Virus record (IMG/VR): IMGVR_UViG_3300022752_000156
Coordinates: 1-40,343 of that record
Strand: one strand, 5' to 3'
Origin: a virus
Length of the DNA: 40,343 nt
Shown one piece after another: positions 27,929-38,752 of the stretch (its first letter is position 1; the number at the start of each line of letters is the position of its first letter). The translations under genes and the position numbers were made by a program. The notes below the pieces were generated by a model. That model worked only from the letters and a program-made list of their open reading frames with translations. It was not told where the DNA came from and did no database searches.

Positions 27929-27939
27929 GTTTTATTTTA

Positions 27940-27948
27940 ATTACACTA
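27940..27948 (-). promoter_or_regulatory. Late-type element TAGTGTAAT
   Basis: The motif lies 12 bases before the ATG at 27928. It is divergent from the plus-strand copy at 27958, with 9 bases between. Confidence 0.5.
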
Positions 27949-27957
27949 TTGAAAAAA

Positions 27958-27966
27958 ATGTGTAAT
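27958..27966 (+). promoter_or_regulatory. Late-type element ATGTGTAAT (plus strand)
   Basis: GTGTAA is followed by 8 bases and then the ATG at 27974. Confidence 0.5.
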
Positions 27967-27973
27967 ATAAAAT

Positions 27974-28345
27974 ATGATAGATTTCTTAAGAAATTTACTT
28001 TTCAAATCTTTTAACTCTAAGATAGTAAAAGGATTCCCAACATGTGAAGATTGTCCTCCTCCAGAACCAGATTGTACAAATCCTTGCGGATGTGATAATG
28101 GTGGAGGCGGTGGATGCGGCGGAGGGGGGCCAGATGGATTTCGGGGGCCAGGTGGTGAGATAAGCATGGAAGATGATGTGGCTGAATTTTTAGCCGTAGG
28201 ACAACAAGCCCCAGAGGGTGGTGAACTGGTAGTTTGTCCTGTTCCTCAACCAGATCCACCAAAATGTCAAGAATGTTCTGGTAGCGGTGGCGTAAATAAT
28301 GGAGCTGGAACTGGCGTTTGCATAACTGTAACAACCACCTATTAA
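27974..28345 (+). CDS. Gly/Cys/Pro-rich small protein (123 aa)
   Basis: A plus-strand gene among minus-strand late genes. The N-terminal helix is basic (MIDFLRNLLFKSFNSKIVKG), then CEDCPPPEPDCTNPCGCDNG, a glycine run, an acidic patch (SMEDDVAEFLAVG) and a second Cys motif CQECSGSGGV. About 9 Cys suggest disulfides or metal. A late element at standard spacing supports expression. Its TAA overlaps the stop of the convergent gene at 28342. No family recognised; it might be a cross-linked virion or envelope peptide. Confidence 0.6.
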   Translation: MIDFLRNLLFKSFNSKIVKGFPTCEDCPPPEPDCTNPCGCDNGGGGGCGGGGPDGFRGPGGEISMEDDVAEFLAVGQQAPEGGELVVCPVPQPDPPKCQECSGSGGVNNGAGTGVCITVTTTY

Positions 28346-28767
28346 AAATACAAAAATTTTATATTTTTAAATTTTGTATTATCTTTATATAATTGGTTTG
28401 ATTCAGGCTCAAAGAATATATAATCTATATTATCGTCTTTTTTATAAAATATTAGATTTAATGCATGATCATATTGTGATTTCTTCAGTTCTATGTGAGC
28501 TATTGATATAGCAAAATGCGCATCACAATTTTTTTCTTTATAATATATATCGCACACAAGTTTAAAAGTTTGGCTAAATTTAGAACAATTCCAAGAATTA
28601 TTTCTGCCTATATTGTATCTTTTAATAAAATCATTATATAAGGGTATAATATTAATTTCTATCTCTTCTAAAGAAGGTATATAGTACTTTTCATTACAAA
28701 ATACTATTTCTGGAAGATTCCATGGTAATTTCCAAAATTTTTGAAATTTTTTTCTATCAACTATCAT
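28342..28767 (-). CDS. Papain/transglutaminase-like phage protein, copy 1 (141 aa)
   Basis: Paralogue of the 153-aa protein at 29740. Shared order: WNCSKFSQTFK (Cys), YDHALNLIF (His), YIFFEPESNQLY (Glu) and a C-terminal FKNIKFLYF. The Cys-His-Glu order suggests a papain-like or transglutaminase-like fold, active or not. This copy is more degenerate (NCS for DCD, EPES for EPQN). It overlaps the coiled-coil membrane protein gene by 4 bases. Confidence 0.6.
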   Translation of the reverse strand: MIVDRKKFQKFWKLPWNLPEIVFCNEKYYIPSLEEIEINIIPLYNDFIKRYNIGRNNSWNCSKFSQTFKLVCDIYYKEKNCDAHFAISIAHIELKKSQYDHALNLIFYKKDDNIDYIFFEPESNQLYKDNTKFKNIKFLYF

Positions 28768-29747
28768 TTATTTTCTTTTATATTAGGGTCTGAAAGTGGC
28801 TCGTTATGAACTTTTTTTGTTCCTCTTTTAAAAGATTTATTAAAATCTTCATATATTTTTTTTATTTTATCTTGAATTGGTTCGATATTATTATCTTTGA
28901 TATTTTGCTTGATTTCTATTATTTTTTTATTTATTGATATATTATATGATAGTATTAGAGCTACTGCGAGTGGATCAAATACAACAACTATAAATAATAT
29001 AAACCATTTTACTACTGTTTCAATCTCAACATTAAAAGCTTTTGCTATAAATTTATAAGTACCTATATCTGAAGATATTATTTGTTTTTTTAATTGTATT
29101 ATTTGATTATCTGTATTATTAATCTCTTGAGCTAAACTAGTATTTATAGCATTAAGTTTTTCGACATTTGATTCTAGGTTTGATATATTACTTTGCATTG
29201 TCACTAATGTTTGATTCTTTAATTCTAATGACTTCTTATCTACAACCGTATCCTGTTTATCTGTCCCAAATAATCCTCCAGATTTTGTTACTGTTGTAGT
29301 TGTAGACTGATCTAAAGCTTTTGTTAAATTATTTTCTTGACTTTTACGAGTTTCTATAAGTATTTTAATTCTGTCATTGTTCGAGGTAATTTGAGAATTT
29401 AAAGTATTTTTTTTATTTTCTAGTAGATTTATCTCTGATTCCGCAGCATCTATGTTTGATTTTGTTGCATAAAAGGCTTGAGAAAGAAAACCAAATATAC
29501 CTAAGCTGGTAATACCCATCAATATAATAACTGCGCTAATAAGATATATTTTAAGTAATTTATTAATTTTCTCCCAATATCGATATAAGAAACTTGTAGC
29601 CATAATTTTGCCAAATTCAAGGCTGCTGGCCATTATTATAGATGACCAAAAACTACCAGAGAATAAGAGTCCTATCCCTTTAACTGAAAAAAATCCACCA
29701 CAAAATGCTACAAATAATGCGCTTAATCCAAGTAGATAATTAAACAT
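28764..29747 (-). CDS. Multi-span membrane protein with coiled coil (327 aa)
   Basis: Start placed at 29747, where the protein opens MFNYLLGLSALFVAFCGGFF and overlaps the upstream gene by only 8 bases; an in-frame ATG 66 bases earlier adds a poor N-terminus. Three membrane spans lie at the N-terminus, with SVKGIGLLFSGSFWSSIIMA, SLEFGKIMATSFLYRYW and IYLISAVIILMGITSLGIFG, a sequence pattern widespread in cyanophage and pelagiphage proteins of unknown function. A long coiled coil (about 95-235) with a GGLFG hinge precedes another span (about 240-265) and a charged tail. It may span the host envelope or act on the membrane during infection. Confidence 0.7.
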   Translation of the reverse strand: MFNYLLGLSALFVAFCGGFFSVKGIGLLFSGSFWSSIIMASSLEFGKIMATSFLYRYWEKINKLLKIYLISAVIILMGITSLGIFGFLSQAFYATKSNIDAAESEINLLENKKNTLNSQITSNNDRIKILIETRKSQENNLTKALDQSTTTTVTKSGGLFGTDKQDTVVDKKSLELKNQTLVTMQSNISNLESNVEKLNAINTSLAQEINNTDNQIIQLKKQIISSDIGTYKFIAKAFNVEIETVVKWFILFIVVVFDPLAVALILSYNISINKKIIEIKQNIKDNNIEPIQDKIKKIYEDFNKSFKRGTKKVHNEPLSDPNIKENK

Positions 29748-30201
29748 ACAAAAATGAAATAGATTTAAATTCGTTATCTGTAAAATTATATAATTTTCCG
29801 TTTTGTGGTTCAAAATAAGTAATTAACATACCATTATTACCTTCATTAAGATAAATTATATTGCCTGCGTGTGGTCCACTCGTACCATTTTCTGCTCTAC
29901 TTTCTGCAATGTAGTGAACAATGCCTACTGCAATTGATTCTGCGCCACTTTCTATATGATTAAAATAATATCCATTAGTAAAAACCTTAAAAGCATCTGA
30001 AAAATTATCACAATCCCATTTATGATACCATTTGCCTAGATTAAGAGAAGCAAGCCATTTCCTAAAGTTTGGATATAATTCATTTATTACTAAATCTTTT
30101 GTTGGGCAATAATAAGAAACATCTCCTGCTACTGCATTTCTAGGAGGTGGTAGATTCTTGTTTTTCCAAGGTTCTAGTAGTCTTTGAGGTTGTATTACCA
30201 T
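29740..30201 (-). CDS. Papain/transglutaminase-like phage protein, copy 2 (153 aa)
   Basis: The better-preserved paralogue of the gene at 28342. Blocks: VSYYCPTKDLVINELYPNF, WYHKWDCDNFSDAFK (Cys), SGPHAGNIIYL (His) and LITYFEPQNGKLY (Glu). The order Cys-DN...HAxN...EPQ recurs in small phage proteins that look like papain-like or transglutaminase folds; activity is unproven. It heads the unit that also carries the coiled-coil membrane protein. The late element lies 11 bases before the ATG. Confidence 0.65.
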   Translation of the reverse strand: MVIQPQRLLEPWKNKNLPPPRNAVAGDVSYYCPTKDLVINELYPNFRKWLASLNLGKWYHKWDCDNFSDAFKVFTNGYYFNHIESGAESIAVGIVHYIAESRAENGTSGPHAGNIIYLNEGNNGMLITYFEPQNGKLYNFTDNEFKSISFLYV

Positions 30202-30211
30202 ATTACTTTTA

Positions 30212-30220
30212 TTTACACTT
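30212..30220 (-). promoter_or_regulatory. Late-type element AAGTGTAAA
   Basis: The motif lies 11 bases before the ATG at 30201. It is the rightmost site on the minus-strand late block. Confidence 0.5.
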
Positions 30221-30521
30221 CTTATATATATAAAGAGTTTATAATAAAAAATAGCCTCCCGTATTTTTTAACCTTAAGAGATATATATTCTAATAAATTT
30301 TAATAGATTTTAAAAAAGGGGGTATATAAGGATAGATATAACTATAAGATAAGATATAAGTATATTATTGTATAAATAGGTATATATAGGTAAATAGTAT
30401 TAATTATAGGGGAGATTGATATTAGTACCCCCTCGTCAGATTTTCATTTTGCGTTCTTCTGATTTTTTCAAAAATGGGGTGGTCATATGCAAATATAACA
30501 GGGGTAGGGTAGCTTCAGAGT
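30221..30521. other. Gene-free strand-switch region with G-tracts and AT repeats
   Basis: No gene seen. The left two-thirds is very AT-rich, with short direct repeats built on ATAAGATA and TATATAGGTA. Tracts GGGGG, GGGG, CCCCC, GGGG and GGGG punctuate the stretch, including AGGGG and CCCCT 16 bases apart in inverted orientation near 30,410-30,436. All late genes point left from here and the first early genes point right. It could hold a replication origin or divergent control region; not proven. Confidence 0.4.
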
Positions 30522-30551
30522 CCTAAGTCGTTGACTATCAATGAAATTTAA
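30522..30551. repeat. Early-region palindrome, single copy (E1)
   Basis: TAAGTCGTTGACTATCAATG, then AAATTTAA. It is the promoter-proximal form of the palindrome, 14 bases upstream of the -35 at 30566. Confidence 0.7.
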
Positions 30552-30565
30552 CTGAAGAAAATCCC

Positions 30566-30593
30566 TTGCATAATCCCTAAAGTGTGATAGATT
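30566..30593 (+). promoter_or_regulatory. Early sigma70 promoter, leaderless start
   Basis: TTGCAT, 16-base spacer, extended -10 TGATAGATT; 6 bases then ATG at 30600. Confidence 0.7.
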
Positions 30594-30599
30594 AAGAGT

Positions 30600-30764
30600 A
30601 TGAAAGTTAAAGCAAACATCAAGTTCGACCTGAACGAAACCATCCGCAGACTCAACGCTATCGCAGAAGGCTACAAAGCCTCGGCTCAACGCCTCGAAAA
30701 CATCGTGGCAGAAGCCCAAGCGAAGAAGGACGAAGCCCACCAGAAGTATATGGGGAACAAATAA
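30600..30764 (+). CDS. Small early protein, KIKFDxNETIxRL family copy 1 (54 aa)
   Basis: Encodes MKVKANIKFDLNETIRRLNA IAEGYKASAQ..., a short amphipathic helical protein. The protein at 32026 shares IKFDxNETIxRLxxIxxGYxxSAxRxExI, so the two are duplicates. The start is fixed by the promoter: 6 bases from -10 to ATG, implying a leaderless mRNA. Its TAA overlaps the next ATG (TAATG). Function unknown; small helical early proteins often inhibit host factors. Confidence 0.7.
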   Translation: MKVKANIKFDLNETIRRLNAIAEGYKASAQRLENIVAEAQAKKDEAHQKYMGNK

Positions 30765-30847
30765 TGAATCCTATGGAAATCATCTTTGCCCTTACTATCG
30801 GCTGTCTTATACTTGGCGTTATCGCTATGGCTACGGCGAAAAATTAA
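30764..30847 (+). CDS. 27-aa membrane microprotein
   Basis: MNPMEIIFALTIGCLILGVI then AMATAKN: almost entirely one hydrophobic helix. It is coupled to the previous gene by a shared A (TAATG), so it is probably translated. It is one of several tiny single-span proteins in the window. Function unknown. Confidence 0.55.
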   Translation: MNPMEIIFALTIGCLILGVIAMATAKN

Positions 30848-30886
30848 CCCTTGACGAAAACCAAACCAGAAAGCAATATAGACCAA

Positions 30887-31306
30887 ATGAAAAACCAAAT
30901 CACAATCACAACTCAACCCTTCGGCAACACCACCGCTTTTCTTTTAGAAGGCGACAAAAAGCACATTCGCACTTTTCATAATGCGATGTATAACTATGCG
31001 GCAACCAATGGCAAATTACATGATCTAGGCAACGGCAAAGCGTTCTACTTTTACGCACAGCCCGAAGCCGTGTTGCAAGCGATGACCAAAGTTGCTCTCT
31101 ATGCTCTATGCAATAAGATCAAAGCAAAGGGTTTGAAGGGTGGCTTGCTATCCCTTGCAAAGCAAAAGGCCCAAGATAAGTTCGATAGCTTTAAGGAAGG
31201 ACGCTTCCTTCGCACTAGCATCAGCACAGATGTCTTTAACCTTGGAAGCATCACCGCAGAGAAGCCCTCTGACTACTGTGGGGCGATCAGTGCAGGGAGA
31301 GACTAA
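30887..31306 (+). CDS. Paralogous early protein family, copy A (139 aa)
   Basis: I start at ATG 30887 (MKNQITITTQPFGNTTAFLL) rather than an upstream TTG, by comparison with the paralogue at 34473. The conserved block is FHNAMYNYAATNGKLHDLGN GKAFYFYAQP at about residues 28-57, followed by helices; the C-terminus (LGSITAEKP) also matches the copy at 39310. Homologues lie at 34473 and 39310. No known domain recognised. A TTGACG box at 30851 may be a promoter -35 but the -10 is weak. Its stop overlaps the SleB start (TAATG). Confidence 0.7.
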   Translation: MKNQITITTQPFGNTTAFLLEGDKKHIRTFHNAMYNYAATNGKLHDLGNGKAFYFYAQPEAVLQAMTKVALYALCNKIKAKGLKGGLLSLAKQKAQDKFDSFKEGRFLRTSISTDVFNLGSITAEKPSDYCGAISAGRD

Positions 31307-31683
31307 TGACCGCTGAGATTCTTGTTATAGCTTTAACCATCCTTGGCGAAGCACGAGGCGAAGGCTTTGAGGGAATGGCGGGTGTTGCGTCTGTCATTCA
31401 GACACGAGCCATTGAACGGAAGCAAACGCCCACGCAAGTCTGCCTTGCACCAAAGCAATTCAGCTTCTGGAATGGTGGAGTGAGTGAGGCGAAGAAGCAG
31501 GAGCTTCTAAAGAACCCGCAAGCACACAACGCCATTCGTCTTGCTAAACTTGTAGCAGAGAAACGAATGCCCGATGTTGTGAAGGGTGCAAATCACTATC
31601 ATACTTTCCAAGTATCGCCCAAATGGTCAAAGGGTGAGGAGGTTGTTGCGACAATTCGCAATCACAAGTTTTATCGTTTGTGA
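31306..31683 (+). CDS. SleB-type cell-wall hydrolase (endolysin candidate)
   Basis: A 125-aa protein matching the SleB hydrolase domain: GEARGEGFEGMAGVASVIQT (with the catalytic-type Glu of GEARGE at 14-19), TQVCLAPKQFSFWN, ANHYHTFQVSPKWSKG and the end IRNHKFYRL. The family cuts peptidoglycan. There is no signal peptide, so it would need a holin or the membrane microproteins to reach the wall. It is the minimal domain only. It lies in the early block, coupled to copy A by TAATG, far from the holin-like gene at 995, which is unusual for a lysis enzyme. Confidence 0.88.
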   Translation: MTAEILVIALTILGEARGEGFEGMAGVASVIQTRAIERKQTPTQVCLAPKQFSFWNGGVSEAKKQELLKNPQAHNAIRLAKLVAEKRMPDVVKGANHYHTFQVSPKWSKGEEVVATIRNHKFYRL

Positions 31684-31687
31684 ATCT

Positions 31688-31762
31688 GTAAGTCTCTAAG
31701 CATCAACGACTTACGCGGGGCGGGAGGCAGTCTCTGCAAGTGCTTGATAATCAACATGTTAT
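31688..31762. repeat. Paired palindromes with G-rich core (E2)
   Basis: First palindrome 31688-31714, core CGGGGCGGGAGGCAG, second palindrome 31736-31762. It immediately follows the SleB gene. No promoter is adjacent. Confidence 0.7.
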
Positions 31763-31820
31763 ATCCAAATAAATTGGGCACAACATTTTAATGTTATGCT
31801 CTCCAGTTCGATCTTGCGAC

Positions 31821-31877
31821 AAAACCTGATGGAAGCGAAAAGATCACGAATGATCTTTGACTAAAACCTGATGGAAC
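31821..31877. repeat. Direct repeats flanking a perfect hairpin
   Basis: The 14-mer AAAACCTGATGGAA occurs at 31821-31834 and 31864-31877. Between them is AAAGATCA-CGAA-TGATCTTT (31839-31858), an 8-bp stem with tetraloop. It lies in the 342-base gene-free gap 31684-32025 between repeats E2 and E3. It may be a small RNA or protein site. Confidence 0.5.
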
Positions 31878-31886
31878 GCATAAAAC

Positions 31887-31963
31887 CTAAGTTCTTAACC
31901 ATCAAGGACTTGCATAACCCGCCTCCCTTGCGTTGTAAGTCATTATCAATCAACGAAATTTAA
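31887..31963. repeat. Paired palindromes with G-rich core (E3)
   Basis: Palindromes lie at 31887-31913 and 31935-31963, with core (read on minus) GCAAGGGAGGCGGG. The right copy ends GAAATTTAA, 13 bases before a -35. Confidence 0.7.
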
Positions 31964-31976
31964 ATGTAAAAATATC

Positions 31977-32004
31977 TTGCGAAAATAAAAATTTATGATA
32001 GATT
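31977..32004 (+). promoter_or_regulatory. Early sigma70 promoter
   Basis: TTGCGA, 16-base spacer, extended -10 TGATAGATT. It gives a short purine-rich leader before the ATG at 32026. Confidence 0.65.
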
Positions 32005-32025
32005 AAAGGTAGAAAGAAGAAAGAA

Positions 32026-32172
32026 ATGAAAACAAAAACCAAAATCAAATTCGACATCAACGAAACCATCAAACGCCTAGAAGAAATTTCTAAAGGCTAT
32101 CAAGAATCCGCAAAGCGGATGGAAAAAATCATCGTGAAACTCGATGAAATCGAAACCCTCAAAAAAGGATAA
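32026..32172 (+). CDS. Small early protein, KIKFDxNETIxRL family copy 2 (48 aa)
   Basis: MKTKTKIKFDINETIKRLEE ISKGYQESAK..., a helical, charged protein and clear duplicate of the 54-aa protein at 30600. GAAAGAAGAAAG precedes the ATG as a weak ribosome site. It is followed after 4 bases by the 60-aa gene. Function unknown. Confidence 0.65.
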   Translation: MKTKTKIKFDINETIKRLEEISKGYQESAKRMEKIIVKLDEIETLKKG

Positions 32173-32176
32173 AACA

Positions 32177-32359
32177 ATGAACCTAGAACAATTCGAACAA
32201 CTACTGAAAAACCACGATTGGACTTATGCTATGAGCGATGACTCACGCTACTACCGCAGAGGTCAACAACAATGGTTTGAGATTCGTGACGCTATCGAAA
32301 AGAATGGCGAAGAGTTTCAGAAACTCTATGACCAATACAACGCCAAATTTGGTGTTTGA
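32177..32359 (+). CDS. Small early hypothetical protein (60 aa)
   Basis: Start placed at ATG 32177 (MNLEQFEQLLKNHDWTYAMS), just after the upstream stop and with AAAGGA 6 bases ahead. An ATG 33 bases earlier would overlap the previous gene. The block HDWTYAMSDDSRYYRRGQQQ resembles short proteins of phages and plasmids that carry a DWxYxxSDD motif; the function is unknown to me. Aromatic and charged, soluble. Confidence 0.65.
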   Translation: MNLEQFEQLLKNHDWTYAMSDDSRYYRRGQQQWFEIRDAIEKNGEEFQKLYDQYNAKFGV

Positions 32360-32384
32360 CAAAATCAACAAAAGGAGATAGCCT
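32356..32384 (+). promoter_or_regulatory. Possible early promoter inside preceding gene end
   Basis: TTGACA, 17-base spacer, TAGCCT, then 6 bases to the ATG at 32391. An AAGGAG lies in the same stretch, so it could equally act as a distant ribosome site. Confidence 0.35.
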
Positions 32385-32390
32385 AAACCT

Positions 32391-32540
32391 ATGAATAAAA
32401 CCATCAACAACGAAGAAGTGATTGAGTTGGCTAGTCGTCTGGTCAATATCATCAAAGAGCTAAACGATAACCGCTTCAGCAAAACCGCTGGAGTTTATCT
32501 CAACGAATTGAGCAACCTACTCAACACAAGGAGTATCTAA
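32391..32540 (+). CDS. Small early hypothetical protein (49 aa)
   Basis: MNKTINNEEVIELASRLVNI IKELNDNRFS..., a short amphipathic two-helix protein. It is followed 1 base after its stop by the DUF3846 gene, and AAGGAG at its 3-prime end serves as that gene's ribosome site. No family recognised. Confidence 0.6.
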   Translation: MNKTINNEEVIELASRLVNIIKELNDNRFSKTAGVYLNELSNLLNTRSI

Positions 32541-32541
32541 T

Positions 32542-32922
32542 ATGATGGCAAGAGCTATCCTCATTGACCCATTCACCGAAACCGTGTCACAGGTGACGCT
32601 TGCTGACACTAAATTCCAAACCCTTCGCAACATCATCGATTGCGAGATCATCACAATGACAGGTTTAGCTGATGGTGTGGATATGATCCTAGACGATGAA
32701 GGACTCTTGAAAGATTCAAACTCTCAAGCCTACTTCAAGTTTGGGATTGGCTCACAGCCTTTCGCTGGTAAAGCTTTGATTGTTGGCACAAACGAAGAAG
32801 GCGAAACCGTTTCGCTTCCAGAAAATGTCACAACCGAAAAAGTTTTCGAGCGTATCATCTTTTTTAAGCCTTCAAAAAAATATCTCGATGAATCTTTAGA
32901 GATCAAAGTTATGCCATTCTAA
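32542..32922 (+). CDS. DUF3846 family protein (126 aa)
   Basis: RAILIDPFTETVSQVTL at the N-terminus, DGVDMILDDEGLLKDSN in the middle and FAGKALIVGTNEEGETVSLP match the block order of DUF3846, a family of small proteins common in phages and plasmids with unknown function. AAGGAG precedes the start. It is last in a run of four small early genes (32026-32922). The C-terminus (FERIIFFKPSKKYLDESLEI) is an extension. Confidence in the family call is good; function unknown. Confidence 0.75.
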   Translation: MMARAILIDPFTETVSQVTLADTKFQTLRNIIDCEIITMTGLADGVDMILDDEGLLKDSNSQAYFKFGIGSQPFAGKALIVGTNEEGETVSLPENVTTEKVFERIIFFKPSKKYLDESLEIKVMPF

Positions 32923-32932
32923 AGGCAGTCTT

Positions 32933-33010
32933 CGTAAGTTGTTGAATATCAATGACTTACGCAAGACGGGTCCCTTGCGTTGTAACTCGTTGATGGTCAA
33001 TGAAATTTAA
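32933..33010. repeat. Paired palindromes with G-rich core (E4)
   Basis: Palindromes lie at 32933-32961 (arm CGTAAGTTGTTGA) and 32981-33010, core on the minus strand GCAAGGGACCCGTC. The right copy ends GAAATTTAA, 13 bases before a -35. Confidence 0.75.
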
Positions 33011-33023
33011 ATGAAGATTTTTC

Positions 33024-33051
33024 TTGCAAAAATTGAAAAATATGATAGATT
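33024..33051 (+). promoter_or_regulatory. Early sigma70 promoter
   Basis: TTGCAA, 16-base spacer, extended -10 TGATAGATT. The leader of about 45 bases is purine-rich. Confidence 0.65.
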
Positions 33052-33104
33052 ATATGTAGAAAGAAAAAAGAAAGTGAAAGAAAGTAAGAAAGGTAATAAA
33101 TAAA

Positions 33105-33377
33105 ATGAGTCATAGAATGATAAATTGGAACTATCAGCGAAAGCTGATGCGTGAAACGATGCGTAAGGCATCAAGCGAAGTAGATGCTTCTAAAGTCTAC
33201 CCAAAAACCGAAACCTTCTTCGGTGATGTTTACTTATACGAAGGAGTTTTAGTCAAACTCGTTTACAAAACAACGGCAGAAACTGCTGTTGCTGAAATCC
33301 TCGAAGGTGAGGATAAGGGTAAGACTACAACGATCTACCTTAACAAAGCAGAATTCGTAAAGAAAGAGAATAAATAA
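33105..33377 (+). CDS. Early hypothetical protein (90 aa)
   Basis: The N-terminal third is basic and helical (MSHRMINWNYQRKLMRETMR). The C-terminal part is a small beta domain (YLYEGVLVKLVYKTTAETAV, then KTTTIYLNKAEFV). GAAAGG lies 12 bases upstream of the ATG. No family recognised. It is followed 1 base later by the 59-aa gene. Confidence 0.6.
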   Translation: MSHRMINWNYQRKLMRETMRKASSEVDASKVYPKTETFFGDVYLYEGVLVKLVYKTTAETAVAEILEGEDKGKTTTIYLNKAEFVKKENK

Positions 33378-33378
33378 A

Positions 33379-33558
33379 ATGAATAAAGATAATAAAAAAC
33401 AACTAACTTCCCAAGAGTGGGAACTTCAGCGTTGGGAAAATAACAATAAGAAGTGGGCTAGACTCAAAAAGAGTTGGGCTGATTGGAAAAAGAACAATCC
33501 AGAAAAAGCTAAAGCTCACGCCTTACTAAAGGCAAAACTTAATGGAAAGAAGTCCTAA
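33379..33558 (+). CDS. Trp/Lys-rich early protein (59 aa)
   Basis: MNKDNKKQLTSQEWELQRWE..., with heptad-like WxxxKKxWA repeats (WARLKKSWADWKKNNPEKAK): five Trp and about 16 Lys in 59 residues, strongly basic and helical. It could bind nucleic acid or membranes. Its stop codon overlaps the E5 palindrome (TAAGTCG). Confidence 0.55.
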   Translation: MNKDNKKQLTSQEWELQRWENNNKKWARLKKSWADWKKNNPEKAKAHALLKAKLNGKKS

Positions 33559-33580
33559 GTCGTTGATAATCAACGCAAAA
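33554..33580. repeat. Early-region palindrome, single copy (E5)
   Basis: TAAGTCGTTGATAATCAACG, a near-perfect dyad. The left end supplies the TAA of the upstream gene. It lies 6 bases upstream of the -35 at 33587. Confidence 0.75.
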
Positions 33581-33586
33581 TAAAAG

Positions 33587-33614
33587 TTGACAAAATCAGA
33601 AAGTGTGATAGATT
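33587..33614 (+). promoter_or_regulatory. Early sigma70 promoter, leaderless start
   Basis: TTGACA, 16-base spacer, extended -10 TGATAGATT; 6 bases then ATG at 33621. Confidence 0.75.
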
Positions 33615-33620
33615 AAAGGT

Positions 33621-34040
33621 ATGACAAAGAAAGAACAAATGAAAGCAAACAGAGAGAAACTACAAGCCATCCGTGCAGAGAACGCACGAAAAGAAGCGGA
33701 AGCCATTGAGACTTTTCGCTCACTCAACATTCAAGCGGGAGACTTCATCCAAGTTTCCTACAAATCGTTTTGGAGAATCGGTGGAGAAACTACCGAAACC
33801 GAAATCTGGTATGCTGATGCTACCGAAAACGATCATTACCCAAACCTTCCTTTCCTCAAAAAGGTAATGTTTTGGAACTTGTCTGGTGGATACAATCTCC
33901 TCACCAGCGTTGGAAAATACTTCGACATTCAAAAAGTCGAAGCAACTTCCGAACTCTTGGAGAGAGTTGAAACTAGCAAAGGAATCTCTGCTGGAATCCA
34001 CGAAGCATATAACAGCGGTGGACAATACAAAGGAGACTAA
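33621..34040 (+). CDS. Early hypothetical protein (139 aa)
   Basis: The N-terminal 35 residues form a charged helix (KKEQMKANREKLQAIRAENA). The rest is a beta-rich domain (AGDFIQVSYKSFWRIGGETT, then WYADATENDHYPNLPFLKKV). No family recognised. Start fixed by the promoter (6 bases after -10). AAAGGAG at its 3-prime end serves the next gene. Confidence 0.65.
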   Translation: MTKKEQMKANREKLQAIRAENARKEAEAIETFRSLNIQAGDFIQVSYKSFWRIGGETTETEIWYADATENDHYPNLPFLKKVMFWNLSGGYNLLTSVGKYFDIQKVEATSELLERVETSKGISAGIHEAYNSGGQYKGD

Positions 34041-34041
34041 T

Positions 34042-34227
34042 ATGGTAACCGAATATCAAAAAAGAATGAATGAAGCACAAAACAAAGGATGGGCAAAAGG
34101 TTGCCTTTCCGCTGCGATTATCAAACTGGAATGTTTGGAATCGGGAACACAATACCGATATGAAAAAGAAACGATCAAAGGTGCGTTACAACTTTTGAAA
34201 GAAGCTATGGAAAGTTTAAGCAAATGA
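34042..34227 (+). CDS. Small early hypothetical protein (61 aa)
   Basis: Start at ATG 34042 (MVTEYQKRMNEAQNKGWAKG), chosen because AAAGGAG lies 6 bases upstream and the previous stop is 1 base away; a longer frame exists but overlaps the 139-aa gene. It looks all-helical, with CLSAAIIKLECL as the hydrophobic face. Function unknown. Confidence 0.6.
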   Translation: MVTEYQKRMNEAQNKGWAKGCLSAAIIKLECLESGTQYRYEKETIKGALQLLKEAMESLSK

Positions 34228-34361
34228 AAAAAATCCTTTTCAAAATAAATAAAAAAACTTATAGACTCGCAGTTTCTCACGGCGAGAGAAAAAACTTTTT
34301 AAGGGAAAAATTTTTTTACTATGTTTCTGCGAGTTGCTTGCATCTAAAAGACCTCTTATAA
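34224..34361 (+). CDS. Possible small basic protein (45 aa)
   Basis: ATGA overlap with the previous gene. Encodes MKKILFKINKKTYRLAVSHG ERKNFLREKF..., very basic. The 3-prime end runs into palindrome E6, and its codons are less convincing than those of its neighbours. Called because of the coupling; it may be spurious. Confidence 0.35.
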   Translation: MKKILFKINKKTYRLAVSHGERKNFLREKFFYYVSASCLHLKDLL

Positions 34362-34434
34362 GTCTTTCAGCATCAACTACTTAGGACGCAAGGGAGCCCC
34401 CGCGCGCAAACCCTTGACTATCAACGACTTATAA
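34357..34434. repeat. Paired palindromes with G-rich core (E6)
   Basis: Palindromes lie at 34357-34385 and 34412-34434, core GCAAGGGAGCCCCCGCGCGC. The right copy (TTGACTATCAACGACTTATA) lies 4 bases upstream of a -35. Confidence 0.75.
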
Positions 34435-34438
34435 AAGC

Positions 34439-34466
34439 TTGACAAAAATAAAAAATCTGATATCCT
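34439..34466 (+). promoter_or_regulatory. Early sigma70 promoter, leaderless start
   Basis: TTGACA, 16-base spacer, extended -10 TGATATCCT; 6 bases then ATG at 34473. Confidence 0.7.
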
Positions 34467-34472
34467 CTTTTT

Positions 34473-34838
34473 ATGCAAAACAAAATAAGAATCTTTGCCG
34501 AACCTTTTGGCCCTAACCTCGCCTATTTAATTGAGGCAGATTTCGCGTCTGCTGAAAGATTCTACAATGCAATTTACAATTTCGGCGGAACCAATTACAA
34601 ATTACAAGATCGTGGAAGCGGAAAAGCATTTTACTTTTATGCCGAACCAGCAAAGTTTCGCAGGGCTTTATCTCTCGCACTCGCCACGAATCTCGAATCA
34701 TCTTTTGCTCAAGGTGATTGGAACTCTCACGCAGAAGCGTTGGCAGACCAAATAATTTCAGAAATAAAACCAGCAACTTTTGTAAGGCGTTGTCATTCAA
34801 TGGAATATTCTTGCAGAAAATCTTTGACAGAATCGTAA
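34473..34838 (+). CDS. Paralogous early protein family, copy B (121 aa)
   Basis: MQNKIRIFAEPFGPNLAYLI, with the family block FYNAIYNFGGTNYKLQDRGS GKAFYFYAEP at about 30-59, shared with copies at 30887 and 39310. The C-terminal half differs (SSFAQGDWNSHAEALADQII). No known domain. Start fixed by the promoter. It sits alone between E6 and the next promoter. Confidence 0.7.
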   Translation: MQNKIRIFAEPFGPNLAYLIEADFASAERFYNAIYNFGGTNYKLQDRGSGKAFYFYAEPAKFRRALSLALATNLESSFAQGDWNSHAEALADQIISEIKPATFVRRCHSMEYSCRKSLTES

Positions 34839-34851
34839 TCTGTGATACATT
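34824..34851 (+). promoter_or_regulatory. Early sigma70 promoter, leaderless start
   Basis: TTGACA, 16-base spacer, extended -10 TGATACATT; 6 bases then ATG at 34858. It overlaps the 3-prime end of copy B and has no palindrome beside it. Confidence 0.7.
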
Positions 34852-34857
34852 ACCTAT

Positions 34858-35082
34858 ATGAACCAAAACGACATATCCTACCTAGCCTCGATTAACTGCA
34901 CCGAAGCCTTTGCTGATGCGGAAGCATTCTTCGATTACATCAACTCCGCTGATGCCATCAACGAGATGCTCGACAAGATGGCTCCCTCTTACGATGAGAG
35001 GGATACCGAGGTCACCAACTTCTTTGGCGTGAAGGCTGTTCCTTTTCGCCTCACCTGTCAGAATGGAATGGAGGTCAAATAA
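34858..35082 (+). CDS. Acidic early hypothetical protein (74 aa)
   Basis: MNQNDISYLASINCTEAFAD AEAFFDYINS..., acidic and helical. GGAGG near its 3-prime end serves the next gene. Start fixed by the promoter. GC and codon use are richer than in the late genes. No family recognised. Many acidic early phage proteins are DNA mimics or inhibitors; here that is only a thought. Confidence 0.65.
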   Translation: MNQNDISYLASINCTEAFADAEAFFDYINSADAINEMLDKMAPSYDERDTEVTNFFGVKAVPFRLTCQNGMEVK

Positions 35083-35083
35083 C

Positions 35084-35362
35084 ATGGACTATAAATTCGA
35101 ACTGCAAAAGTGGATGAGTGAGCATATGCTGACTCCGCTGGATGTGCGCGACATCCTAAGTGAAATTCGTAAGGATCGCGAAAACGAGCGCGTCCTCGCA
35201 TCTTCTCAATCTAACCTCTCTGATGTGGACGAATCGATGGATGGCGACTTCGATTCTGCTATGGCCTCTGCTGGTCATGGAACCGATGAAGACTATGGTG
35301 GCGGATGCTACCAGATGGAAGACTTCGGTTGGGCTGGTGATCCAGAAATCTGTGGAGAATAA
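35084..35362 (+). CDS. Acidic early hypothetical protein (92 aa)
   Basis: Start at ATG 35084 (MDYKFELQKWMSEHMLTPLD), with GGAGG 9 bases ahead, in preference to an upstream in-frame ATG that overlaps the previous gene. The first half is helical (DVRDILSEIRKDRENERVLA); the second half is an acidic Gly/Asp-rich tail (DESMDGDFDSAMASAGHGTD, then EDYGGG). No family recognised. Confidence 0.65.
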   Translation: MDYKFELQKWMSEHMLTPLDVRDILSEIRKDRENERVLASSQSNLSDVDESMDGDFDSAMASAGHGTDEDYGGGCYQMEDFGWAGDPEICGE

Positions 35363-35364
35363 TT

Positions 35365-35478
35365 ATGGAAAAATATATACTCGCAATCGCGGGGCTTGGA
35401 ATTTTTTTCCTCTCTCTCGCCTCATTAGAAACCATTATCAACTTTGCTGTATGGCTTTGGGAGCGTAAGCGTAAGTAG
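35365..35478 (+). CDS. 37-aa single-span membrane microprotein
   Basis: MEKYILAIAGLGIFFLSLAS LETIINFAVW, ending LWERKRK. One hydrophobic helix is followed by a basic cytoplasmic end. It starts 2 bases after the previous stop. Its TAG lies inside palindrome E7. Function unknown. Confidence 0.55.
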   Translation: MEKYILAIAGLGIFFLSLASLETIINFAVWLWERKRK

Positions 35479-35546
35479 TTAACTATCAACAACTTACGGC
35501 GGCGGGGAGGGCACCCTCGTAAGTCTTTGATAATCAGAAGCTTACA
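35470..35546. repeat. Paired palindromes with G-rich core (E7)
   Basis: Palindromes lie at 35470-35499 and 35518-35546, core CGGCGGGGAGGGCACCC. It lies between convergent genes and supplies stop codons on both sides (35478 plus, 35542 minus); no promoter is here. It may act as a two-way terminator. Confidence 0.75.
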
Positions 35547-35691
35547 TCGAAGCTCGCCAACCCTCAAAAAATTCGTCTATCTCTCTTTCTTTTTGCAGAA
35601 AAGTTTTTCCAGCATCGAGTGGAGGATTATCGTTGTCGCTCCACGGATAGAAAGATTCTAGATTTTCGTTTAATAGTTTTTCGATGTTCAT
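35542..35691 (-). CDS. Small early hypothetical protein (49 aa)
   Basis: MNIEKLLNENLESFYPWSDN DNPPLDAGKT..., an acidic protein with a WSDNDNPP turn; the C-terminal helix EREIDEFFEGWRASM ends in palindrome E7. It overlaps the upstream 20-aa frame by ATGA and is downstream of the GP88 gene, so it is likely co-transcribed from 36395. No family recognised. Confidence 0.55.
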   Translation of the reverse strand: MNIEKLLNENLESFYPWSDNDNPPLDAGKTFLQKEREIDEFFEGWRASM

Positions 35692-35750
35692 TTTGAGATT
35701 ATAAATGTTAAAATTAGTCCACAGGTTATAATTGCAATAAATGTTTCCAT
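35688..35750 (-). CDS. Possible 20-aa membrane peptide
   Basis: METFIAIITCGLILTFIISK: one hydrophobic helix with a basic end. It lies between the GP88 stop (9 bases upstream) and the 49-aa gene, overlapping the latter by ATGA. There is no ribosome site, so the call rests on spacing and composition only. Confidence 0.35.
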   Translation of the reverse strand: METFIAIITCGLILTFIISK

Positions 35751-35759
35751 TGGGACATC

Positions 35760-36395
35760 TTAGTGCTTTTTGTAGTTAATTGCAAACTCATTTTTATGCC
35801 AGCATGCACGGCACGAACCGCACTTGTTTCCTTGTTTAGAGGATGGGCAATTAAACTCTCCCTTGTTGCTCGCACCGCTAACGCAAAGACCAAGGCGTTC
35901 TGCTAACCCAACGGGTGCGGGGCCGTTCATCATAAGAGCAGATAAACGAATAGTAAGATTGAAAGGAACTTCACCGCCCTTTGCTATATACTCTGAAACG
36001 AAAGAATATTCCCGAGTAGGCAACCAAAAAGAAATATGCGGAAGATTCTTTGCAACTTTGACAATCTTCTCAAGATGCCAAATGCCTTGCAAATCTCCCG
36101 AATCGTGCCAACGAAAGTGAGGGTTGTTTGCTTTACCAATAAGGTAAGTCATCGCATCCACCCAAAGATCGTGGGTAAGAGAAGCGAAACGCTTTTCCAT
36201 CGCCGCTTGAACATTAGGGAAAACATACCGCCCTTTAAGAGCATAGCAGAAAGCACAAATGCTTCCAGCAACTTGACGCATTTTTTGCCCGATGATACAA
36301 CGCTTTGCTGGCGTTGAATAAGCATAACCTGGCATCTTCGAAGGTTTAGATAGTGTGCCGACAATAGCTTCGGCTTGCTTTTTGTTTTTGAACAT
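35760..36395 (-). CDS. GP88-family phage protein
   Basis: A 211-aa protein matching the gene-product-88 family: KMPGYAYSTPAKRCIIGQKM, SICAFCYALKGRYVFPNVQA, FRWHDSGDLQGIWHLEKIVK and SFWLPTREYSF. Conserved Cys C33, C47 and C50 (CxxC followed by YA) and a C-terminal CPSSKQGNKCGSC...C suggest a metal or iron-sulfur site; the CxxCYA and HDSGDLQ blocks recall radical-SAM-like proteins, but the full CxxxCxxC is absent. Function unknown. Start fixed by the promoter (6 bases after -10). It heads a minus-strand unit with two tiny genes. Confidence 0.8.
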   Translation of the reverse strand: MFKNKKQAEAIVGTLSKPSKMPGYAYSTPAKRCIIGQKMRQVAGSICAFCYALKGRYVFPNVQAAMEKRFASLTHDLWVDAMTYLIGKANNPHFRWHDSGDLQGIWHLEKIVKVAKNLPHISFWLPTREYSFVSEYIAKGGEVPFNLTIRLSALMMNGPAPVGLAERLGLCVSGASNKGEFNCPSSKQGNKCGSCRACWHKNEFAINYKKH

Positions 36396-36401
36396 AAAAA
36401 T

Positions 36402-36429
36402 ACTTTATCAGTTTTTTTTCTTGTGACAA
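36402..36429 (-). promoter_or_regulatory. Early sigma70 promoter, leaderless start
   Basis: On minus: TTGTCA, 16-base spacer, extended -10 TGATAAAGT; 6 bases then ATG at 36395. Confidence 0.7.
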
Positions 36430-36445
36430 GTTTTTTTTGTAGTTA

Positions 36446-36521
36446 AATCTCGTTGAGTATCAATGACTTACAACTGCAGGGAGGTCGCTTGCCTAAGTTG
36501 TTGAAACTTAAGCAGTTATAG
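36446..36521. repeat. Paired palindromes with G-rich core (E8)
   Basis: Palindromes lie at 36446-36472 and 36492-36521, core GCAGGGAGGTCGCTTGC. The left copy faces the GP88 promoter; the right copy covers the end of the ArdC gene. Confidence 0.7.
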
Positions 36522-37347
36522 TTTCTTCTTCTGGAATCTCTTCACTTTCTTTTTTGCCAAGAAAAGCGTCAAATCTTTTTTGGGCTTTGCTAGAAGCTGA
36601 TATGATAAAATTCATATCCTTCTTTAATACTTGGAGCCAACTCGAAAGATAGCTCGCAGAATTGTTAAAACATTTTTCAGAATCAATCCCGCAGAAGTTA
36701 AGACAAAGACTCGCAAAAATCTCTGCGGTCAATTCTTCTTTGCTATAATTCTCTGAACCAAATCCATTTTTGATATCATCATTGGTTGCCTTGTGCATAG
36801 CGTGACCGATCTCGTGAAACGCCGTGGAATAATACTCCTCAACGCTGTTAAAGTTTTCTTTCTCGGGCAGATCAATCTTATGCTCCTGCGGATAATAACA
36901 GGCACGGCTTCCACCATACTTGATCTTGATGATGCACTTATTGATCAACTTTTCTGCTTCTTCTACTGGAGAAAATTCCAGCTTCTTAACTTCGGGCTGT
37001 TTCCACTTTAGCCCCTCGACATCGCTCAAACCAAAGACTCTGTAATAACGCATCATCGGAAAGCTTTTGGTTTCATTGTCTTTTTCAGACTTCAATAGTT
37101 TGTAATAAACTACCATATGAGACTTGGCACCAGTTTTGATCTTTCCACCAAGTTCTTTGATCTGGTTAAAGGTAAAGAAAAAATCATCCGATGAAAACAT
37201 CCGAAGCAAAAACTGATTGATGCCACGATAATTCTTTTTGGAAACGCCGTTACAGAGGTCAAAAACTTTCCAAGGTTTCTGCCAAGGGCAAACGCCTTTG
37301 TTGAGGGCTTCGATGAATTTTTCTGTGATGATTTCATTTACTTTCAT
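36508..37347 (-). CDS. ardC: ArdC-like antirestriction protein
   Basis: A 279-aa protein with the ArdC N-terminal ssDNA-binding pattern (ALNKGVCPWQKPWK, NYRGINQFLL, YYRVFGLSDV) and a C-terminal zincin-like metallopeptidase: FHEIGHAM (HExxH at 178-182) with a downstream Glu in EELTAEI. Plasmid ArdC protects incoming DNA from type I restriction; polyvalent metalloprotease domains of this kind accompany mobile DNA entry. It probably counters host restriction early in infection. Start fixed by the promoter. Length is normal for the two-domain core. Confidence 0.88.
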   Translation of the reverse strand: MKVNEIITEKFIEALNKGVCPWQKPWKVFDLCNGVSKKNYRGINQFLLRMFSSDDFFFTFNQIKELGGKIKTGAKSHMVVYYKLLKSEKDNETKSFPMMRYYRVFGLSDVEGLKWKQPEVKKLEFSPVEEAEKLINKCIIKIKYGGSRACYYPQEHKIDLPEKENFNSVEEYYSTAFHEIGHAMHKATNDDIKNGFGSENYSKEELTAEIFASLCLNFCGIDSEKCFNNSASYLSSWLQVLKKDMNFIISASSKAQKRFDAFLGKKESEEIPEEETITA

Positions 37348-37353
37348 ACGATA

Positions 37354-37381
37354 AATATATCAGAATTTTTCTTTTTGTCTA
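37354..37381 (-). promoter_or_regulatory. Early sigma70 promoter, leaderless start
   Basis: On minus: TAGACA, 16-base spacer, extended -10 TGATATATT; 6 bases then ATG at 37347. Confidence 0.7.
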
Positions 37382-37387
37382 CAAAAG

Positions 37388-37463
37388 AATCTCATTGTAT
37401 ATTAAAGACTTACAGAGCAAGGGAGGTTCCATTTATAAATCATTAATAATCAATGAAATAAAA
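37388..37463. repeat. Paired palindromes with G-rich core (E9)
   Basis: Palindromes lie at 37388-37413 and 37433-37463, core AGCAAGGGAGGTTCC. It lies between divergent promoters for ArdC (minus) and the 44-aa gene (plus), each promoter next to one palindrome. Confidence 0.75.
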
Positions 37464-37466
37464 TTG

Positions 37467-37494
37467 TTGACTATATAGATAAATATGATAATCT
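37467..37494 (+). promoter_or_regulatory. Early sigma70 promoter
   Basis: TTGACT, 16-base spacer, extended -10 TGATAATCT. The leader contains AGAGG before the ATG at 37518. Confidence 0.7.
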
Positions 37495-37517
37495 ATAAAA
37501 AGAAAAGAGGTAATAAA

Positions 37518-37652
37518 ATGATGCATGATATATTCGATGACCAAAAAACATTAGACCTGTGGGCGAAAAAAATGCTGGATGATCAAGCTATAGAGCGAGC
37601 CTTAGAAACTCAAGCAGAACTTGATGCTGACCAAGTTATTAATAATCAATAA
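37518..37652 (+). CDS. Acidic early microprotein (44 aa)
   Basis: MMHDIFDDQKTLDLWAKKML DDQAIERALE..., acidic and helical, ending QVINNQ. Its last seven codons and stop are part of palindrome E10, so the repeat has been recruited as coding sequence. AGAGG lies 8 bases before the ATG. No family recognised. Confidence 0.6.
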   Translation: MMHDIFDDQKTLDLWAKKMLDDQAIERALETQAELDADQVINNQ

Positions 37653-37706
37653 CTTATAACAGAAGGGACCCCGCTTCTGTAAGTGCTTGATAGTAAAAGA
37701 CTTAGG
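37633..37706. repeat. Paired palindromes with G-rich core (E10)
   Basis: Palindromes lie at 37633-37660 and 37679-37706, core CAGAAGGGACCCCGCTTCTG, itself a dyad. The left copy encodes the end of the 44-aa protein, and the right copy touches the 3-prime end of tRNA-Glu. Confidence 0.75.
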
Positions 37707-37774
37707 GCTAAACGGATTCGAACCGATACACCCTCATTGAAAGCGAGGAGTCCTAACCATTAGACGATAGCCCC
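37703..37774 (-). tRNA. tRNA-Glu (UUC)
   Basis: Acceptor GGGGCTA pairs with TAGCCCT (one G-U). Anticodon loop CTTTCAA gives UUC, stem CCTCG/TGAGG, T-loop TTCGAAT with one T-T mismatch in the T-stem. No CCA encoded. The 3-prime end touches palindrome E10. Confidence 0.85.
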
Positions 37775-37831
37775 AATATGTAGTATTATTATATTAGGTA
37801 TTTAGCTATTTAGCAATTATTATTTGCTATT

Positions 37832-37840
37832 TTGTGTAAT
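37832..37840 (+). promoter_or_regulatory. Late-type element TTGTGTAAT (plus strand)
   Basis: The motif lies 18 bases before the ATG at 37859. It is the only well-placed late-type site in the right-hand block. Confidence 0.4.
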
Positions 37841-37858
37841 CTACTTTAGAATTTAGAG

Positions 37859-38044
37859 ATGAAACAAAAAGCCAGTGGTATATTAGAGAACTCTGCATTA
37901 TATAAAGAATTTCTCCGTGAGCGCGAGGAGATATTAAAACACAAATGGATTGAAAGTGAAAAAGCTGGTAAGGATGTTGGTTTTGAGTGGGCTTTGCTTG
38001 ATTGGAACTTCCACCACAGAATTAATTGGAAGCAAAATAAATAA
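37859..38044 (+). CDS. Small conserved-looking protein (61 aa)
   Basis: MKQKASGILENSALYKEFLR EREEILKHKW is followed by IESEKAGKDVGFEWALLDWN and FHHRINW. The block HKWxxSEKAGxDVGFExALxDW recurs at the end of bacterial proteins and as short phage proteins; the function is unknown to me. It ends 1 base before tRNA-Tyr. A late-type element upstream suggests late expression, unlike its neighbours. Confidence 0.6.
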   Translation: MKQKASGILENSALYKEFLREREEILKHKWIESEKAGKDVGFEWALLDWNFHHRINWKQNK

Positions 38045-38127
38045 TGGGCAGAAGTGGATTCGAACCACTGAAGGCGTAAGCCAAGAGATTTACAGTCTCC
38101 CCCGTTTGGCCACTTCGGTATCTGCCC
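38045..38127 (-). tRNA. tRNA-Tyr (GUA)
   Basis: Class II tRNA. Acceptor GGGCAGA pairs with TCTGCCC, discriminator A. Anticodon loop CTGTAAA reads GUA, with a long variable arm (TTGGCTTACGCC) and T-loop TTCGAAT. It is 8 bases downstream of the structured RNA and probably in one transcript with it. Confidence 0.92.
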
Positions 38128-38135
38128 AAAAATTT

Positions 38136-38287
38136 AGTTCTTCCGCTCTCCTTGATTAGATGTTCTAGAAACATCAGAGAAATATACCCACCTTTAAAGT
38201 GCCTCAGACTCTGGGCGTTGGGGCTTCAAGCGCTATTTATCCGATAGCTCGTCTGTGGTTAGTCTGACCACGCTTGCGGAAAGAACT
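38136..38287 (-). ncRNA. Structured RNA with pseudoknot (152 nt), unknown class
   Basis: Read on minus. The ends pair: AGTTCTTTCCGC with GCGGAAGAACT (11 bp, one bulge). Inside, CAAGC/GCTTG encloses two hairpins with 7-base loops, GTGG-tCAGACTa-CCAC and GCTAT-CGGATAA-ATAGC. The loop UCAGACU is perfectly complementary to AGUCUGA 40 bases downstream (7-bp pseudoknot). Near the 3-prime end GATGTT-TCTAG-AACATC forms another hairpin. A matching promoter (38294-38321) puts +1 on the first base of the closing stem. No reading frame of note. It is not tmRNA, RNase P or 6S by any sequence mark I can see. Confidence 0.65.
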
Positions 38288-38293
38288 ATAATT

Positions 38294-38321
38294 ATCTTAA
38301 CATAATTTTGTTTTAGTGCAA
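38294..38321 (-). promoter_or_regulatory. Early sigma70 promoter of the structured RNA
   Basis: On minus: TTGCAC, 16-base spacer, extended -10 TGTTAAGAT; the seventh base after the -10 is 38287, the first base of the closing stem. Confidence 0.65.
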
Positions 38322-38325
38322 TAAA

Positions 38326-38354
38326 AAAGGCGAGATTTTTTAGGTCTCGCCCTT
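38326..38354 (-). terminator. Intrinsic terminator of the 86-aa gene
   Basis: On minus: AAAGGCGAGA, 9-base loop, TCTCGCCTTT, followed by a T-run (TTTTTTAT). A strong rho-independent form, just upstream of the structured-RNA promoter. Confidence 0.8.
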
Positions 38355-38376
38355 TCTATAAATAATCTCTCTGTTA

Positions 38377-38637
38377 TTAAACTGGCGAGAGACCTCCAGA
38401 AATCCGATCATAACGGAACTGGCGATGGCCGAATCCGTCACGACCAGAGAAGCACCAAGAAATGAAAAGTTTGTTTCCAGCCTTGGAGACATAATGGGTA
38501 GTAGGAACGCCAACGATGTAAGTATAAGTCTCGGTTCCATTGTAAGGCTTATAGTTGATGATATACCGCTGTCCTAAAATAAAATAGAACAGACCCTTAA
38601 TCATCTCCCACAGGGTGATGTTGTTTTGTTTCTTCAT
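38377..38637 (-). CDS. Small WYL-like protein (86 aa)
   Basis: After a short hydrophobic N-terminus (ITLWEMIKGLFYFILG) come IINYKPYNGTETYTYIVGVP, NKLFISWCFSG and HRQFRYDRISGG. The order of a Y.P.NG strand, a hydrophobic core strand and a final RxFRxDRI is that of WYL domains, which sense ligands and regulate transcription or defence. It is shorter than a full domain and has no DNA-binding part. The start is set by the promoter 6 bases upstream; the gene ends in an intrinsic terminator, so it is a monocistronic cassette. Confidence 0.6.
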   Translation of the reverse strand: MKKQNNITLWEMIKGLFYFILGQRYIINYKPYNGTETYTYIVGVPTTHYVSKAGNKLFISWCFSGRDGFGHRQFRYDRISGGLSPV

Positions 38638-38643
38638 TTAATA

Positions 38644-38671
38644 ATCATACCATAATTTGTTTTCTCTGCAA
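38644..38671 (-). promoter_or_regulatory. Early sigma70 promoter, leaderless start
   Basis: On minus: TTGCAG, 16-base spacer, extended -10 TGGTATGAT; 6 bases then ATG at 38637. Confidence 0.7.
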
Positions 38672-38677
38672 GAAAAG

Positions 38678-38752
38678 AATCTCGTTGTCCATCAACAACT
38701 TACGCAGCGAAAGTCCCCGCCGATGTAACTACTTGATAATCAAAGACTTACA
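38678..38752. repeat. Paired palindromes with G/C-rich core (E11)
   Basis: Palindromes lie at 38678-38704 and 38724-38752, core CAGCGAAAGTCCCCGCCGA. The left copy faces the 38637 promoter, 6 bases from its -35; the right copy follows the 53-aa gene. Confidence 0.75.

Follow-up and report, generated by a model that had tools for sequence, protein, structure and literature searches.

A free-standing structured RNA family encoded beside tRNA genes in uncultured phages

The RNA locus

The stretch of DNA analysed here, called the window, is a 40,343-base piece of an uncultured tailed-phage genome (IMG/VR record IMGVR_UViG_3300022752_000156). It encodes a T4-type large terminase, and ARAGORN finds seven tRNA genes in it, each of them on the minus strand. 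An initial annotation, made from the letters alone, placed an orphan structured RNA 8 bases before tRNA-Tyr, and the gap to that gene (38128-38044) measures 7-8 nt. The elements of the RNA and its surroundings are as follows.

38316-38321, minus strand: -35 box TTGCAC (TTGACA in many relatives)
38294-38299, minus strand: -10 box TAAGAT, after a 16-nt spacer and 6 nt before the putative +1 on the first stem base
38136-38287, minus strand: whole RNA, 5' end 38287 and 3' end 38136 (covariance model R1 matches 38287-38134)
38277-38287, minus strand: P1 5' strand AGUUCUUuCCG, with pairing kept in relatives of different P1 sequence
38272-38276, minus strand: P2 5' strand CAAGC, with three family pairs changed on both sides
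38255-38271, minus strand: P3 hairpin GUGGU-CAGACUA-ACCAC, loop L3 with GACU invariant in all members, stem covarying
38232-38248, minus strand: extra hairpin GCUAU-CGGAUAA-AUAGC, seen in none of the 30 other distinct members
38227-38231, minus strand: P2 3' strand GCUUG
38220-38224, minus strand: P4 5' strand GCCCC (CCUGC/GCAGG instead in the long form)
38200-38217, minus strand: P5 hairpin CGCC-CAGAGUCUGA-GGCA, loop L5 with invariant AGUC, predicted to pair with L3
38186-38192, minus strand: P4 3' strand GGUGGGU
38147-38180, minus strand: P6 hairpin region, abutting P1, with 7 family pairs changed on both sides
38164-38169, minus strand: palindromic hexamer UCUAGA in the 9-nt P6 loop, the proposed self-pairing site
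38136-38145, minus strand: P1 3' strand CGGAAGAACU
38044-38128, minus strand: tRNA-Tyr (GTA), the downstream neighbour, outside the RNA

The structural elements described in the initial annotation are all present. The terminal stem is formed by AGUUCUU-(bulged U)-CCGC and GCGGAAGAACU (11 pairs), the inner stem CAAGC/GCUUG encloses the two hairpins with 7-nt loops (GUGGU-CAGACUA-ACCAC and GCUAU-CGGAUAA-AUAGC), and the additional hairpin reads GAUG-UUUCUAGAA-CAUC. The loop UCAGACU (38267-38261) is perfectly complementary over 7 nt to AGUCUGA (38210-38204). The folding energy of this single sequence is unremarkable (z = -1.49, with 14 of 200 shuffles equally good), so the window by itself is no proof of an RNA, and the proof comes from its homologues. 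Among these the window RNA is an outlier, since the extra hairpin (nt 40-56 of the RNA) and a longer P6 occur in the window only.

Several other features of the window were recorded. Close to the RNA lies the gene of an ArdC-like anti-restriction protein (36508-37347, minus strand), which carries a zincin-like metallopeptidase domain and is conserved in the window's own lineage, lineage (i) below. A palindromic intergenic repeat, TAAGTNNTTGATNATCAA, occurs in 37 copies in the window at up to 3 mismatches (6.2 expected; equalled in 0 of 100 shuffles), often as pairs 48 nt apart. It was noted over 30524-38750 (e.g., at 31689-31761, 34359-34431, 35472-35544, and 38685-38750) and could serve as an operator, form an RNA hairpin, or be a mobile element. 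Two proteins hint at a PEP-CTERM-bearing Gram-negative host: one (19160-19948, minus strand) has a weak PEP-CTERM motif that scores below the curated cut-off, and the other (16022-18292, minus strand) is a GH16 plus GDSL-lipase protein; our guess is that this host is presumably a member of the Verrucomicrobiota.

Homologues and their distribution

Relatives were collected by retrieving loci through the neighbouring ArdC-like gene and then by blastn. A scan with the invariant core AAYGCCCAGAGTCNGAGGC recovered 37 other uncultured phage records, all confirmed by the covariance model, and the family including the window comprises 31 distinct sequences of 130-217 nt. Each carrying record holds one copy, including a contig of 171,916 bases. 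Two further loci, L144 and L217, were rejected as chance matches without the structure. No relative was found by blastn among the 50,697 isolate phage records of INPHARED, where matches were short or weak and at the level of chance. The exact core turns up 8 times in 84,980 bacterial and archaeal genomes, never with the flanks of the RNA. An exact 20-nt loop probe gave zero matches. TerL was used as a guide to the breadth of the family, and because many TerL-bearing fragments stop short of the RNA locus, absence from those fragments is uninformative.

By their common proteins, the carriers fall into four lineages: (i) the window and, for example, G015 and G024; (ii) G039 and G045; (iii) G040; and (iv) G043, which has a G+C content of 48.7% versus 30-39% in the other lineages. 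A tRNA island lies near the RNA, with the exceptions of L139 and L182, where the stretches fetched contain no tRNA. The downstream neighbour varies and may be tRNA-Tyr (as in the window), tRNA-Lys, tRNA-Pro, or no same-strand gene, and in lineage (ii) the RNA is placed after the tRNAs.

A conserved four-arm fold

The comparison demonstrates, computationally, the conservation of a predicted four-arm junction fold made up of P1, P2/P3, P4/P5, and P6, with P6 abutting P1. A covariance model (R1) built from 19 short relatives, with the window excluded, finds the window RNA with 77.4 bits (E = 4e-16). In the 19 short forms, 94.0% of cells are paired versus 42.7-50.8% in slid controls, and changes on both sides affect 58 cells against 4-16 in the controls. 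For all 31 sequences, in an alignment that was fitted to the model and so somewhat favours structure, 92.1% of cells pair; a phylogeny-aware null, in which each branch keeps its number and kind of substitutions, gives 53.0 +/- 3.9. Cells changed on both sides number 178 versus 29.5 +/- 11.4, and neither value was reached in 500 simulations. A pairwise test like that of R-scape, which has little power at this depth, returned E < 0.05 for 3 of the 37 structure pairs and zero significant pairs elsewhere, and one P4 pair has a two-set E of 0.02.

Compensatory changes, including G-U pairs, are found in all six stems. P1 of L127 has been replaced whole and still pairs (GGUGAACAAUCC.../...GGAUUGUUCACC), and L116, L124, and L139 carry AGUUCCUUCCG/CGGAAGGAGCU in the same place. 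P2 has variants changed on both sides (CAAGG/CCUUG, CAAUG/CAUUG, and CAGUAC/GUACUG), and the P5 stem changes from UGCC/GGCA to CGCC/GGCG. The stems thus covary among the homologues and do not refute the structure put forward for the window; the pseudoknot does not vary. In the long forms, of about 217 nt, P1 and P2 are separated by an extra side domain (about 90 nt), which has compensatory changes of its own, and both short and long forms are present in lineages (i) and (ii). It is virtually certain that an RNA family exists here. The observation made in the initial annotation was real, and it had missed the long form, the palindromic P6 loop, and the spread over four lineages.

The promoter and transcription of the RNA

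The initial annotation also placed an early promoter with its +1 on the first stem base. Boxes resembling -35 (TTGACA or near variants) and -10 sequences are found at a fixed distance before this base in 30 of the 31 members, with L127 lacking a recognisable promoter. The claim holds as to the conserved position of the boxes and is weaker for the window itself, whose -35 box agrees with only 3 of the 6 consensus bases and is not listed by a generic promoter scan. Most members have a U-rich stretch after the RNA. Assigned from position and conservation only, the promoter is probably of the sigma-70 type and the RNA's own, at a site beside or inside the tRNA island.

Kissing and palindromic loops

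The motifs GACU in L3 and AGUC in L5 occur in every member without exception, and scans of the collection in which L5 was left largely free found no variant of AGUC. L5 and its flanks are the most conserved part of the RNA. As the pairing is invariant, covariation cannot test it, and its support is universal complementarity. Because the two loops are universally complementary and almost invariant, an L3-L5 kiss through GACU/AGUC is likely, not proven. The pseudoknot claimed for the window therefore stands as a complementarity, of which the 7-bp version is confined to the window and the family-wide core is 4 bp. At the fifth L3-L5 pair the window has A-U, six long-form sequences have U-A, and most other members are unpaired. 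A local CAG/CUG stem inside L5, proposed by default folding, was rejected because L108-type and L140 sequences break it.

The P6 loop is usually 9 nt long and holds a self-complementary hexamer, which is UCUAGA in most members, UCAUGA in many long forms, and UCCGGA in L140. A palindromic hexamer is found at the aligned site in 29 of the 31 distinct members; the other two, L116 and L139, have ACUAGA there, not a full palindrome, adjoined by a different palindrome, GUCGAC. Between L112 and L131 there are 3 differences in 215 nt, two of them at the palindrome centre (AU versus UA), and in the long forms the central dinucleotide flips while the loop bases around it stay fixed. These switches amount to two double changes (UA to AU and UA to CG). 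Adjacent bases are unable to pair with each other within one chain, so the switches point to pairing between chains, and palindrome switching has been taken as evidence for the intermolecular loops of OLE and GOLLD (Kretsch et al. 2025; PMC12286853). With only two double changes, the case for interchain pairing is suggestive, not conclusive. On this reasoning the RNA probably self-associates.

Relation to known RNAs

The initial annotation recognised no class for this RNA, and none emerges from Rfam. When all Rfam 15 families were searched with cmscan, no family reached its gathering threshold, and nothing credible appeared at E <= 10 for the short form or E <= 5 for the long form; the weak matches at E <= 10 all score far below gathering. 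A tRNA or tRNA-like RNA is disfavoured, as ARAGORN and RF00005 find only the seven ordinary tRNAs. By these sequence comparisons the RNA is a free-standing phage RNA family that is new and in no RNA catalogue.

In location and small size the RNA is akin to T4 stable RNAs C and D (species 1 and 2; 139 and 119 nt), which a tailed phage encodes within its tRNA cluster. Their predicted folds are unlike that of the RNA described here, and homology was rejected since the best overlap with R1 in an unfiltered covariance model search is 2.6 bits, which is chance level. Phi29 pRNA and the HIV-1 dimer initiation site are viral RNAs that oligomerise by loop-loop pairing, the latter through a 6-nt palindrome in a 9-nt loop. 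Both differ from our RNA, which has no Rfam match, in genome context and overall fold. OLE RNA dimerises without protein through a symmetric palindromic kissing loop that shows tetranucleotide switching between palindromes (PMC12286853), and the P6 loop likewise switches between palindromes. OLE is much larger than the present RNA, which has no Rfam match.

GOLLD and ROOL offer a further parallel in setting. Both are encoded in phages near tRNA islands and form homo-oligomers held partly by kissing loops (PMC12286853). Like them, the present RNA is free-standing, orphan, phage-encoded, and often near tRNA islands, and its P6 loop shows palindrome switching as a GOLLD loop does. However, GOLLD and ROOL are large, with a very elaborate fold (GOLLD is often over 800 nt), whereas this RNA is 130-217 nt, and their covariance models do not match it (Rfam 15 cmscan). 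By analogy, the RNA would be a small functional analogue of GOLLD and ROOL and not a homologue or member.

Exchange between lineages and the RNA slot

When the window (40 kb) is compared with G043 (66 kb), from the most distant lineage, blastn matches at E <= 1e-4 are confined to the RNA, which suggests its passage between lineages as an autonomous cassette. The long RNAs of G039 and G015 are 89% identical over 227 nt versus 68-85% for other common stretches longer than 50 nt. Such similarity across lineages would require either exchange or extreme constraint, and exchange is favoured because the neighbours differ.

Two side observations concern the same genomes and site. Two adjacent genes of G040 and G015 (27211-30561 and 73672-76995, respectively; 759 and 357 aa), putative ribonucleotide reductase subunits by appearance, are 78-83% identical, a sign of gene exchange in otherwise unrelated lineages that carry the RNA. 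In L093-L096, which are without the RNA, a similar promoter leads into a different structured RNA at the same site (L093:9460-9640). This second RNA is about 180 nt long, with a closing stem UCGAUGG/CCAUCGA and a GAAA-capped hairpin; it has no match in Rfam, and an 18-nt core probe found it in only three viral records. Because these genomes have an unrelated RNA there, the site behaves like a slot for exchangeable RNAs.

Proposed role

Our preferred reading, to which we give a probability of roughly 0.55, is that of a structured phage RNA transcribed from its own promoter, locked by the kiss, dimerising through P6, and acting in trans on the host as a compact analogue of GOLLD and ROOL. The conserved loops strongly suggest that the L3-L5 kiss GACU/AGUC would lock two arms side by side. 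Two copies may then join by a symmetric kissing loop at the palindromic P6 hexamer, which suggests a homodimer or larger assembly as the working form. Such a stable RNA would act in trans on host machinery as a protein-binding scaffold, a decoy, or an RNA-only assembly. A phage protein partner would not be needed, because the RNA moves between otherwise unrelated phages; no phage protein near the RNA is evident as common to all four lineages, a judgement made on incomplete records. A host-directed role is something we can only infer. More tentatively, and at somewhat under even odds, the family could be a self-assembling class in which a kiss-locked four-arm monomer forms a palindrome dimer and travels as an autonomous cassette into a tRNA-island slot, making it a minimal counterpart of the GOLLD and ROOL nanocages.

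The strongest competitor, though an unlikely one, is a structured RNA that acts in trans as a monomer, for example as a host-protein decoy or scaffold, with the palindrome a protein site or a chance feature. The L3-L5 kiss would by itself give a compact monomer, the strongest conservation is in L5 and its flanks, and symmetric hexamers may be conserved for other reasons. This reading fits poorly with a palindrome that is retained through double changes and whose centre flips in the long forms between fixed bases.

A regulatory sRNA, antisense to host or phage mRNA, is improbable. The RNA is free-standing, driven by a promoter, and mostly followed by a U-rich 3' tail, as many sRNAs are, but its conservation is highest in closed loops that pair with each other and in short A-rich joints, rather than in an open seed, and phage mRNA targets common to four lineages are unlikely. 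Antisense pairing to rRNA was rejected as a candidate, with pairing to E. coli 16S and 23S at chance level, although E. coli may not be the host.

Still less credible is a role in cis, with the RNA leading whichever tRNA or gene follows as a riboswitch, attenuator, or processing signal. A tRNA does follow within about 10 nt in the window, L085, L089, and L106, where co-transcription is likely, but the class of the neighbour changes across the family while the core of the RNA does not, and the RNA of lineage (ii) comes after the tRNAs. A DNA element conserved, for example, for recombination or packaging would also agree with lineage exchange and a palindrome, but it can hardly account for compensatory changes in six stems that include G-U pairs tolerated by RNA only, or for a promoter-like sequence directed into the RNA.

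Implications

To our knowledge, nobody knows the function of the orphan stable RNAs encoded beside phage tRNA genes, namely T4 RNA C and D, GOLLD, and ROOL. At about 130 nt, the short form of the family described here is small enough for easy synthesis, folding, probing, and imaging, and the near-identical pair L112 and L131 provides a natural, clean test of dimerisation. Its passage between unrelated phages points to a function that is directed at the host and self-sufficient. This family could therefore render the question of the tRNA-island RNAs experimentally tractable.
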